This document shows, piece by piece, positions 20,449 through 53,354 of a DNA stretch of 64,000 bases. The stretch is from Candidatus Endolissoclinum faulkneri L2 (GTDB lineage Bacteria; Pseudomonadota; Alphaproteobacteria; Thalassobaculales; Thalassobaculaceae): assembly GCF_000319385.1 (NCBI RefSeq), contig NC_019566.1, positions 821,266-885,265 on the forward strand, written 5' to 3'. The position numbers were made by a program, and so were the translations under genes. The notes beneath the pieces are model-generated. The model was not told the DNA's origin. It saw nothing but the letters and a program-made list of their open reading frames with translations, and did not search any database. Positions within the stretch are counted from its first letter, which is position 1, and each line of letters starts with the position of its first letter.

Positions 20449-20498
20449 AGCAGCATTCTATGCTAATAATTTGAGGATTATTAGCATAGAATGCTGCT
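20449..20498. repeat. Perfect inverted repeat, 22-bp arms, 6-base loop
   Basis: The left arm (20449-20470, beginning AGCAGCATTC) and right arm (20477-20498, ending GAATGCTGCT) pair without mismatch around TTGAGG. It is much longer than an ordinary terminator stem and lacks a T-tract. It sits in gene-free DNA, about 0.9 kb after rsmA and 1.8 kb from msrA. Confidence 0.9.
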
Positions 20499-29618: not shown

Positions 29619-30143
29619 ATGATTCTGTTACAAAGTTATTTTTTAATTCGACCATGGTTCCCAACCATAATTTTAATTGTAGCATTTATCCTGACTAGTT
29701 GCTCACAAACAGATATATTGGAAAATATAGAGAACACTAATTATAACCAAAGATACTATGATCATAGAAAAAGATATAAGCTTGGCGCTGCTTACAAAGT
29801 CCAAGGCGTTTGGTATTATCCGAAGAAAGAATTAAATTACTCAGAAGTCGGTATTGCTTCTTGGTATGGACCAGGGTTCAACGGCAGAAAAACAGCTAAT
29901 GGAGAAATTTTTAACGATAACAAATTAACTGCTGCGCACCGCACCCTGCCAATGCCAAGCTTAGTACGAGTAACAAATTTGATAAACAATCGTTCATTGA
30001 TCGTACGCATAAACGACCGTGGGCCGTTTTCTCGTGGTCGAATCATCGACTTATCACGCCGTAGCGCTAAGCTTTTAGGATTTGTAAATAAAGGAACGGC
30101 TCGAGTTCGTGTTGAAGTAGTAAAGTTAAGAAGACATCGTTAG
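29619..30143 (+). CDS. rlpA: RlpA-family lipoprotein (septal-ring lytic transglycosylase family)
   Basis: Exported lipoprotein of 174 aa with a double-psi beta-barrel domain. RlpA proteins bind peptidoglycan lacking stem peptides and in some bacteria cleave it during cell separation. A hydrophobic signal segment (about 10-25) ends in the lipobox LTSC (Cys28). The barrel domain spans about 76-170 with GIASWYGPGFNGRKTANGE, LTAAHRTLP and the catalytic-type IVRINDRGPF. It lacks the C-terminal SPOR domain found in longer homologues. It sits 385 bases before the D,D-carboxypeptidase, a conserved alphaproteobacterial pairing. Maturation would depend on the Lol system found further on. Confidence 0.93.
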   Translation: MILLQSYFLIRPWFPTIILIVAFILTSCSQTDILENIENTNYNQRYYDHRKRYKLGAAYKVQGVWYYPKKELNYSEVGIASWYGPGFNGRKTANGEIFNDNKLTAAHRTLPMPSLVRVTNLINNRSLIVRINDRGPFSRGRIIDLSRRSAKLLGFVNKGTARVRVEVVKLRRHR

Positions 30144-31686: not shown

Positions 31687-32018
31687 AGATATAATATTGA
31701 AGCTATTTTTTTCTTTAATGAAAACGTAGAGGTAGTGATGAAATATTCATACTATGGTAAGTATACTTTTTTATTATATTATAATCTTACGTAAAAGTAA
31801 AATAGTCTACAATATAATTTAAGGCATTAACTTGTATTAAATGTGATCTACTCTAAATTTATATATGTAAAAAACGCTCTACAAAAAAATTAATCCTAAA
31901 GGCTATATTAGGCTATACTTAATCTGTAAGCCACACTAATTGAAAATTATTAGTTGGCAACATGTATATATTACGAGCAATCTAAATCAATTAGATATTG
32001 TTGTACTAAAAATTGTTA
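31687..32018. other. Gap where tmk would be expected
   Basis: 332 bases between the carboxypeptidase gene and holB, too short for an intact thymidylate kinase gene. An 18-codon frame begins at 31738 (ATGAAATATTC) after AGAGG; it has no recognisable relative. I see no remnant of tmk. Confidence 0.5.
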
Positions 32019-33179
32019 ATGAGGGATAATCAAAAGAATAAAAATCAAGGTTTACCGTTTCCTTCTGCATCAACCGAATTGCTAGGACATGAGAAAGCGG
32101 AAGGCGAGCTTGTCGAAGCTTATAATTCAGGACGGATGCCTCATGCTTGGCTATTCTTTGGACCAACTGGTATTGGTAAGGAAACTTTAGCCTTCCGTTT
32201 GGCGAAATTTATTCTTTCCCAAGAAGGAAATAAGCTTCACCAACCATTGAGTTGTAGTTTATTTAAGTCTCTTACGATAAATCCTAAGTGCCAAGCTGCC
32301 CTTCAAGTTTCGTCTGAATCCCACCCAGATCTTAAAATTTTACGCTGTAAATCCAACGAACAAGGAAGAACAAATTCTATAATTCGTATAAACGATATTC
32401 GTTCTTTTAAAAGCTCGTTACATTTGAAGTCTAGCTCCGGCGGTTGGCGTGTAATAATTATTGATGAAGCCGAAAAGATGAACACTAACGCTGCAAATGC
32501 TATTCTTAAATTGATTGAAGAACCTCCCGAAAAAACTTTAGTAATAATAATTACCAACTCACTAAATGCTATTTTACCAACTATTAAATCACGCTGTCGA
32601 AAATTGATGCTAAGACCGCTAAATGATAATTTTGTTGCCTCACTGATAACTAAGGTTTACCCGTATCTATCAGATAAGGACATGAATATCATCTTACGCT
32701 TAGTAGAAGGAAGTCCAGGAAAAGCTTTAACATTCTTAGAAGCTGGTGGAGCTGTAATATATCGTGACATTATCAATATTCTCAGTAAAATTCCTAAAAT
32801 AAGTGGAGAAGAAGTGCATGCTCTAGCAGAAAATTGGTGCAAAAGAAAATTAAATAATAGTAATCAAGACATTTTTCATATTGTGACTTACATGCTATTG
32901 CGTTGGATAGAACGTGCCATTCTGGCTGCCAATCAGTCCCCTGACATTCAAGAAATAATTCCTGGTGATTTAGAGGCTGGGCGAATTTATGTTTCTTGCA
33001 TCGGTTTAGAATCTGCTTTTTATCGCCGTGATGCTATATATCGATTAATCCAACTAGAAAATGCATTAATGCTCGATCGTAAGCAGCTCATAATTGAAGC
33101 TTTTTATATTCTAGCACTTGGCGAAAAAATAGAATATTCTATTTTTTCGCCAAGTGCTAGAGATTTTATTAAATTTTAA
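32019..33179 (+). CDS. holB: DNA polymerase III subunit delta'
   Basis: Clamp-loader subunit that helps load the sliding clamp at the replication fork; 386 aa. AAA+ domain: Walker A GPTGIGKET, Walker B IIIDEAEKMN, sensor-1 region LVIIITNSLNAILPTIKSRC with the SRC motif. I prefer ATG 32019 over the in-frame TTG 32013; no ribosome binding site is obvious. The family normally ends near the conserved helix QLIIEAFYILALGEK. Here the last 16 or so residues (IEYSIFSPSARDFIKF) are encoded largely by the right half of a 52-bp perfect palindrome, so the tail looks newly formed. The gene precedes proS and follows the carboxypeptidase gene; the usual tmk is absent. Confidence 0.93.
   Translation: MRDNQKNKNQGLPFPSASTELLGHEKAEGELVEAYNSGRMPHAWLFFGPTGIGKETLAFRLAKFILSQEGNKLHQPLSCSLFKSLTINPKCQAALQVSSESHPDLKILRCKSNEQGRTNSIIRINDIRSFKSSLHLKSSSGGWRVIIIDEAEKMNTNAANAILKLIEEPPEKTLVIIITNSLNAILPTIKSRCRKLMLRPLNDNFVASLITKVYPYLSDKDMNIILRLVEGSPGKALTFLEAGGAVIYRDIINILSKIPKISGEEVHALAENWCKRKLNNSNQDIFHIVTYMLLRWIERAILAANQSPDIQEIIPGDLEAGRIYVSCIGLESAFYRRDAIYRLIQLENALMLDRKQLIIEAFYILALGEKIEYSIFSPSARDFIKF
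33110..33161. repeat. 52-bp perfect palindrome inside the 3' end of holB
   Basis: The two 26-base halves are exact reverse complements with no spacer (centre between 33135 and 33136). The left half begins TCTAGCACTTGGCG and the right half ends CGCCAAGTGCTAGA. It lies wholly within the holB coding frame and ends 18 bases before the stop. In RNA it would form a very stable hairpin; T-rich sequence follows. Confidence 0.97.
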
Positions 33180-33451
33180 TTAAAAAAAGTTCTATTATAC
33201 AATAATTAAGATAATCTTCTATAATCTGATTTTTAATTAAAACGCTAAACATACGAAAACTTCGTAGGATCTAATTAATGCTTTTTCAACTATACTTATT
33301 TTTTGCAGTAAAAGCGTTCTGTCCTTGGTATTACTCCAAAATTGTAAATATAAAAATTGCTGTTACTTGAAAAACTAATAAGTATAGGTTTAACCAAAAT
33401 TAACAACAGCACGCCTAACATAATCTAGTAATTTTATTGCCGAGAAATTGA

Positions 33452-48155: not shown

Positions 48156-48193
48156 TAACTATTAAATGTTTTCTAAAAAACATTTAATAGTTA
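48156..48193. repeat. Perfect inverted repeat, 17-bp arms, 4-base loop
   Basis: Left arm 48156-48172 (TAACTATTAAATGTTTT) and right arm 48177-48193 pair exactly around CTAA. It sits about 250 bases after the dapE stop. Confidence 0.85.
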
Positions 48194-49234: not shown

Positions 49235-49281
49235 TGCTTTATTGCATCCTTTAAAATAGTTTTAAAGGATGCAATAAAGCA
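49235..49281. repeat. Perfect inverted repeat, 22-bp arms, 3-base loop, 3' of alaS
   Basis: Left arm 49235-49256 (TGCTTTATTGCATCCTTTAA...) and right arm 49260-49281 are exact reverse complements around TAG. It starts 50 bases beyond the alaS stop and could end that transcript, but lacks the T-tract of a standard intrinsic terminator on either strand. Confidence 0.92.
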
Positions 49282-51998: not shown

Positions 51999-53354
51999 AA
52001 CGTATCTCCAAATACTTAGCTATCTTTCGACATATTAAAATATGCAAAACGACCTCGTCAAAATTGCTGAATTATAAAAGCAAATTACTAGGCACTGCCA
52101 TAAATTATTTAATAATTAACAAATTATCTTTTATTGTTCGTTAACAATAAATACTTCTTTAAACAATTTATTAATTGTTCAGTAGAAGTTTTTTAATGTA
52201 AAGTAAAATTATTAATATGATTAACCCTTAGTAAACATTTTTATTTTTAATCAAGGTGCGTAGGTAAAAGAGGAAAATATATCTTACAAACGACTAGGAA
52301 TCTTATTAAAAGTATAGTCCTACTCATAGTAAAAAAGCGATTAGACGTGCGTGTAAAAAAGCAATCTATATAGAGAAATTTAATACTTGTATTAAATTTC
52401 TCGGCACAGCCTAGATTATTAGTTAAATTAGATAATTTTTTTTAATTGTCCTACGATACGTAGGAGAATAATTTCTTGTAAATTAGTTATCAACTAAAAG
52501 ATTAAATTTATTAAACGATACTAAAAATTATCATTCTATTTACGAAATAGAAAAATAGTGAAGTGCCATTAGCTTAATCAGGCCAAAATGTAATATTACG
52601 ACAACCATAACTAGTCCATTTTACAAAAATTTATTTCATCAAATATATACCTTAGTATAAGTAATAACTATTAATATCATCTAAACTAATGCTATATAAT
52701 TTATTAATTGTAAATTATATATTTATAGGATTTTTATATCTATAAACAAGCTAATCGTTAGTTGATGATATTTAAATTTTGCTAATTAGTTCAATAATGA
52801 ACTAAATATTAGCTTAAATTAAATATAATTAACTGTACGTAGAGCTTTTTCAATGGAAAATGACTAACTAAGATAGTTTCTAATTTAGTTAATAGTGTAA
52901 CTGTTTACTTAAATAATAAACTAAAATATATTTAGTATTCCTTTATAATTTTATGCTAACGACATTTTTAATTAAATTTTATTTAATCGCAATAAGTAAC
53001 CCAATGATAATATTTATTGTATAAATAATTGTAAGACAAAAAATTTCTTGCTTTTTACTAGATTAGATTATATATATTAAATATAATGTTTTGACTTTGT
53101 TAAGATTTACATCTGTATGTTTGAACTAATACTTAAAAAGTAAAATATTTTAAAAAGTGCTAAAGCATCAAATGCTAAAAAATTACGAGTAATATAAAAA
53201 AACAAATGTAAGATTGTCTCTATAGGAGATAGATTAGATAAAAACCGGAATAATAAAATATCTATTTTTATAGACAAATTAGATTATTTATCAACCTCAA
53301 TCACTTAGTTAAAAAAAGATTATTTTTTTGTAGTAAATCAAAAAAAGATAATGC
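51999..53354. other. Gene-free AT-rich stretch upstream of alaS
   Basis: 1.36 kb with no gene. It contains a 14-bp perfect inverted repeat (52373-52402) and a 9-bp hairpin with loop CGTT (52130-52151). recA would often be found here, but I see no remnant. The promoter of alaS should be near its left end; none is clear. Confidence 0.55.
52373..52402. repeat. Perfect inverted repeat, 14-bp arms, 2-base spacer
   Basis: GAGAAATTTAATAC and GTATTAAATTTCTC flank TT. It is about 375 bases upstream of alaS, with no clear role. Confidence 0.75.

Follow-up and report, generated by a model that had tools for sequence, protein, structure and literature searches.

How did an essential replication gene acquire a perfect 52-bp palindrome at its 3' end, and what keeps the two arms alike? 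The question arises at holB of Candidatus Endolissoclinum faulkneri L2, in a stretch of 64,000 nucleotides from contig NC_019566.1 (hereafter the window, to which coordinates refer). Two arms of 26 nt, 100% complementary and with zero spacer, lie wholly inside the HolB reading frame there, and the locus is laid out as follows:

32013-33179, plus strand: holB, DNA polymerase III subunit delta prime; 388-aa ORF from TTG (predicted start), matching NF005677 (305.3 bits, cut-off 252) and PF13177
33110-33135, plus strand: left arm, the terminal stretch of original holB coding sequence (LALGEKIE plus the first base of a Tyr codon); complementary to the right arm and alignable with congeners
33136-33161, plus strand: right arm, copied as the reverse complement of the left and coding for the new tail (the rest of the Tyr codon, then SIFSPSAR); without counterpart in congeners
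33162-33179, plus strand: codons after the palindrome and the stop (DFIKF*); T-rich sequence, included in a terminator-like match

Comparison of the arms bore out the initial annotation, which had described two exact 26-base halves without spacer inside the ORF; its distance of 18 bases to the stop holds if the TAA is counted, and is otherwise 15 nt. The centre of the palindrome falls inside the Tyr codon of IEYS, so that, by coordinate arithmetic, the third codon positions of the two arms pair with each other. These are the longest perfect arms in the window, whether loops of up to 12 or up to 60 nt are searched, and the palindrome occurs at a single site in the one-contig L2 genome (1,481,191 bp). 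Chance is ruled out as its origin: base composition predicts 1.6e-10 zero-loop palindromes with a 26-nt arm in 64 kb and 1e-8 with any loop of 0-60 nt, and order-3 Markov sequence, one per sampled stretch (1.18 Mb in all), contained no perfect inverted repeat with arms of 14 nt or more. An Rfam search returned no family at the holB locus and only three tRNAs in the window. Separately, a second perfect inverted repeat (33174-33186 and 33230-33242; 13-nt arms, 43 nt apart) begins in the last holB codons after the palindrome.

The source of the tail emerges from four congeners (G002-G005), presumed to be free-living, with genomes of 4.7-5.6 Mb. HolB ends LA[FY]GEGLERRRA* in an alignment of all four, as against LALGEKIEYSIFSPSARDFIKF in L2 and LALGGKNKYSTFPPSAKI in its sister strain L5, and a search of the congeneric holB loci (L005-L008, about 4.1 kb each) for inverted repeats with arms of 10 nt or more and a loop of up to 12 nt found none. 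The left arm is thus native by alignment, the right arm is its exact reverse complement, and the copy is missing outside the symbiont clade, in agreement with the earlier proposal that the left half is original and the right half was copied from it. That proposal had also placed the normal end of delta prime around ALGEK, which is slightly off, given that the congeners continue for seven residues beyond GE, and had taken the old C-terminus to be replaced by IEYSIFSPSARDFIKF. Replacement stands for RRRA and the stop; the left arm already encodes the I and E of IEYSIFSPSARDFIKF, which align with L-E of the congeners, and native sequence reaches the E of GEKIE in L2. As judged from the aligned sequences, then, the native residues lost are RRRA, not the whole C-terminus. 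The new tail, which extends beyond the conserved protein core, is probably tolerated rather than selected. A wider contig search for HolB yielded 80 distant relatives, whose matched names belonged to other groups.

The nearest relative of L2 (G000) is a genome of 1,518,636 bp (G001), which we infer to be strain L5. In the sampled stretches the two share 192 orthologous ORF pairs at a median identity of 85.0%; the published L2 and L5 genomes measure 1.48 and 1.51 Mbp, with 57.2 and 55.6% coding DNA and a median protein identity of 85.6% (PMC3851785). At the same place in holB, L5 carries a longer hairpin with 48-nt arms, 98% complementary and 14 nt apart, and its TAG stop lies within the longer arm. 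The centres of the two hairpins coincide to the base and in frame, a coincidence that depends on anchoring by the coding arm; whole-gap MAFFT alignment opens a long gap there and does not align the right arms together.

Of the 26 L2 pairs, nine differ between the strains; both sides have changed in five of them and a single side in four. For a closer comparison, the pairs were divided along the boundary of the L5 loop, a 19/7 split made after the data had been seen. Among pairs 0-18, outside that loop, all 19 are paired in L2 and 18 in L5; four differ between strains, every one of them on both sides and none on one side only, with three still Watson-Crick and the fourth an A.C mismatch in L5. 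Among the seven apex pairs, 19-25, L5 forms two Watson-Crick pairs and one wobble, and here four pairs differ on one side and one on both. At the four unpaired apex positions of the right arm the strains agree at two. Among 24 pairs examined beyond the L2 stem, L5 forms all 24, and L2 five Watson-Crick and two wobble. That three of the four two-sided differences within the 19 pairs preserve pairing may, on these sequences, reflect concerted change of the arms, although independent copying gives the same pattern. Two L2 intergenic stretches searched against L5 gave short matches.

Another coding hairpin is common to both strains (L042:18407-18435, L058:18970-18998). Its 14-nt arms lie inside an ORF and show one paired C-G to T-A difference, which changes His to Tyr on one side and is silent on the other; the ORF carries the motif HRLDK.TSG, and we take it to be of the pseudouridine synthase type.

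The holB palindrome is one of many such structures in these genomes; neither this class nor the sister hairpin figured in the initial annotation. A scan of sampled stretches for perfect inverted repeats (arms of 14 nt or more, loop up to 60 nt) found 62 in L2 (384 kb sampled) and 76 in L5 (395 kb), the L5 count rising to 114 in 609.6 kb with added stretches, a density of about one per 5-6 kb of sampled symbiont DNA. The congeners G002 and G004 each gave four per 200 kb, and smaller controls gave three in 55 kb (G029, 44% GC) and one in 22 kb (G034). None was found in G026 (6 kb, 38% GC), G030 (9 kb), G037 (7.8 kb), G003 (17 kb), G005 (20 kb) or G032 (31% GC), the last being the only control below 35% GC and comprising just 35 kb of one genome. 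Four further hairpins of this class lie in the window itself, all located by the inverted-repeat scan and without assigned strand:

20449-20498, no strand: hairpin with 22-nt arms and a loop of 6 nt
48156-48193, no strand: hairpin with 17-nt arms and a loop of 4 nt
49235-49281, no strand: hairpin with 22-nt arms and a loop of 3 nt
52373-52402, no strand: hairpin with 14-nt arms and a loop of 2 nt

When mismatches were allowed (loop up to 30 nt), 66 of 83 hairpins in L2 and 71 of 97 in L5 were mismatch-free, and among arms of 20 nt or more the perfect share was 21 of 27 in L2 and a lower 21 of 39 in L5, shares to be read with the mismatch penalty of the hairpin scoring in mind. When 176 hairpins were compared with one another, the E cut-off of 0.001 was passed by a single orthologous pair and by two AT-rich matches of 14 nt; all others had sequences of their own. 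Since, moreover, the stems (23.5 and 23.8% GC) resemble their AT-rich flanks (26.3 and 27.2% GC), the hairpins look locally templated. Arms of 12 nt or more overlapped an orthologous ORF in 10 of 98 cases in L2 and 9 of 160 in L5, and in both lists the holB arms were the longest. Across 168 syntenic gaps holding 67 L2 and 78 L5 hairpins, 33 gaps had hairpins in both strains, with five near-coincident pairs, none of which looks like the same sequence (holB is not listed among them, owing to the MAFFT gap). Coincidence between strains is therefore rare, which suggests that re-formation is frequent and that hairpins are made and lost quickly. In a survey of 1,565 bacterial genomes, the main text of which does not name Endolissoclinum, Buchnera ranked highest in inverted repeats (PMC10434271). 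The terms hairpin, palindrom and inverted repeat are missing from the main text of the L2/L5 genome paper (PMC3851785), and a search of the open-licence literature found no report on hairpins in this lineage.

We favor, at a probability of roughly two in three, an account in which a fold-back template switch rewrote the end of holB, the arms were later corrected against each other, and the same process operates genome-wide in a lineage that has lost repair functions. While the 3' end of holB was being replicated, the newly made strand would have folded back and taken the coding sequence before it as template, so that an inverted copy with an open frame took the place of the last four codons and the stop; this probably happened once, before L2 and L5 split. 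Template switching is known to create a perfect stem in one event and can fix pairs afterwards (PMC8794818). The hairpin itself would act as a template-switch hotspot at which mutations of one arm are copied into the other, and this may be how pairing was kept while the sequence drifted, as the pattern in pairs 0-18 suggests. In L5, the stem would have become longer, with the stop supplied by the copied arm. Elsewhere in the genome the same process would make and remove perfect hairpins, mainly in unconstrained DNA. A fold-back or template-switched origin, already put forward in the initial annotation, is the best explanation of the locus, backed by the genome-wide hairpin excess and by the matched differences of both arms seen in the sister strain.

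Exonucleases I and VII limit quasipalindrome mutations in E. coli. No match to xseA, which encodes the large subunit of exonuclease VII, was found in the whole genomes of L2 or L5, and the gene is present in all four congeners; recA and mutSLH have likewise been lost from L2 and L5 (PMC3851785). In E. coli, quasipalindrome mutations are modelled as fold-back of a nascent 3' end and are raised in recB mutants (PMC6357072). The functions that would limit hairpin formation here are probably those of exonuclease VII, recA and mutSLH, and their loss may be a cause of the hairpin excess, the link to exonuclease VII being a correlation; our search of the open-licence literature found nothing joining quasipalindromes with exonuclease VII. 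Other candidates were rejected: all six genomes have recJ and polA, which removes loss of RecJ or Pol I as a cause, and the SbcC and SbcD models scored above cut-off in none of the six, congeners included, so that SbcCD loss does not set the symbionts apart. More tentatively, and at slightly less than even odds in our estimation, the symbionts may be under a general hairpin-making regime, in which fold-back copying, after the loss of mismatch repair, recA and exonuclease VII, continually generates perfect inverted repeats chromosome-wide and proofreads them; these would persist like replication parasites, and at holB a shared hairpin whose arms change together would dictate the end of an essential protein.

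One doubt about the favored account is that only two lineages are available, which makes it hard to tell an ancestral event followed by correction from two events at a hotspot, given that a newly made right arm would match its left arm as well. A separate fold-back in each lineage, with each right arm a recent and uncorrected copy of its own left arm, would explain why arms match within a strain and differ between strains, and it accords with the fast genome-wide turnover, the unequal arm lengths (26 and 48 nt) and the poor agreement at the unpaired apex. It sits less easily with a centre that coincides to the base and in frame, or with the A.C mismatch in the L5 stem, which suits an older copy, and we regard it as rather unlikely. 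A single shared origin is likelier than two separate ones, and our reading is that one shared hairpin, its arms kept alike, was either extended in L5 or decayed at its outer end in L2.

A different explanation is that selection keeps the hairpin because it terminates transcription, a role already suggested in the initial annotation, or protects the 3' end of the mRNA; here holB would first have been cut off from its old neighbour metG, and the paired changes would have arisen by compensatory evolution. The gene order dacC-tmk-holB-metG of congeners G002 and G004 is indeed broken in both symbionts, where holB now lies between dacC and proS (window flanks 31687-32012 and 33180-33451) and both metG and tmk have been relocated (in L2, to 1362585-1364027 and 1209534-1210121, respectively). 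The 3' end of holB consequently adjoins an old rearrangement. T-rich DNA follows the stem in L2 and L5, the folds are strong (-43.5 kcal/mol, z -9.3, and -76.7 kcal/mol, z -16.9), and the L2 site gives a terminator-like match with the T-rich tail GAGATTTTAT, one of three such sites in the region against a shuffle mean of 1.9. Genome-wide, arms of 14 nt or more number 35 in 71.7 kb of convergent gaps, 55 in 174.8 kb of tandem gaps and 10 in 56.0 kb of divergent gaps, and 17 fall in 210 gene-3'-end zones as against 8 in 194 gene-start zones. Stems in tandem gaps are followed by 3.4 T, compared with 2.5 at the mirror position (n=54), and five or more T occur after 11 of 54 versus 5 of 54, a mild bias. 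However, the holB stem lies inside the ORF, the stems of the class are AT-rich, the 3' excess is absent in L2 for arms of 12 nt or more (9 in 105 zones versus 8 in 97), and for many hairpins the closest called gene is hundreds of bases away, with gene calls being approximate. Rho is present in six of six genomes, which excludes its loss as a driver of hairpin terminators. Stem selection also leaves the exact templated origin unexplained, and as a sole account we consider it doubtful; terminator selection could nonetheless act on top of template switching.

Palindromes are typical artefacts of strand-displacement libraries, which raises the question of an assembly or library fold-back. Yet the sister genome was assembled separately and shows a hairpin that differs from that of L2 and exceeds it in length while sharing its centre, and in both strains the frame runs through the palindrome into an open tail, so that this worry is largely met and an artefact as sole cause is very improbable. 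Insertion of a mobile palindromic element of the Rickettsia kind, which the position inside an ORF of a reduced alphaproteobacterial genome might bring to mind, is hardly credible given the single genomic site, the lack of a dispersed family or consensus copies among the 176 hairpins, and the native coding sequence of the left arm.

Several described systems come close to the holB case. Reported template-switch mutations likewise consist of a reverse copy of adjacent sequence that yields a perfect stem with pairs fixable later (PMC8794818, PMC6357072, PMC7202029); here, by contrast, long perfect hairpins occur across a bacterial lineage, among them one that has overwritten the 3' end of an essential gene. 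The nearest known kind is the coding palindromes of nematomorph mitochondria, where genes contain long inverted repeats, most of which lack mismatches; their arms change in concert, they are gained and lost between species, and conversion was suggested for them (PMC6649704). Long perfect arms inside a predicted coding frame are shared with holB, whereas our case concerns a bacterial chromosome on which hairpins lie mostly outside orthologous ORFs. Furthermore, the arms at holB do not both encode conserved residues: the left arm alone does so, and the tail from the right arm is missing in congeners. Rickettsia palindromic elements, as known from PMC6649704 and general background, also reside within ORFs of reduced alphaproteobacterial genomes, but they form dispersed families that lose arm identity, unlike the single, locally templated sequences of Endolissoclinum. 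In yeast coding genes, arm homogenization by template switching alters proteins without adaptive cause, as may have happened at holB, although the cases described involve short repeats, up to five neighboring residues and no tail (PMC8604942), compared with a new C-terminal tail here. Rho-independent terminators, too, are stem-loops at a gene end followed by T-rich DNA; the holB stem differs in lying within the ORF and in being far longer than needed, and the stems of its class in being AT-rich.

If the favored account is right, these genomes would provide a natural and repeated case of a mutation type usually caught singly in reporters, in which fold-back copying first supplies a protein with a new end and afterwards preserves the match between the arms during drift. 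With one arm coding and alignable, holB would allow maintenance to be separated from recency, unlike the fast-turning intergenic hairpins. Should the exonuclease VII link hold, the lineage would show what the enzyme prevents over evolutionary time. Moreover, there would be a warning for comparative work, in that paired stem changes, usually taken as proof of RNA function, can come from copying alone.

Elsewhere in the window, positions 29619-30143 hold an ORF of 174 aa that is presumably rlpA. Rare lipoprotein A is listed in the L2/L5 genome paper as 45.7% shorter than its homologue (PMC3851785), and its identity with this ORF is putative.
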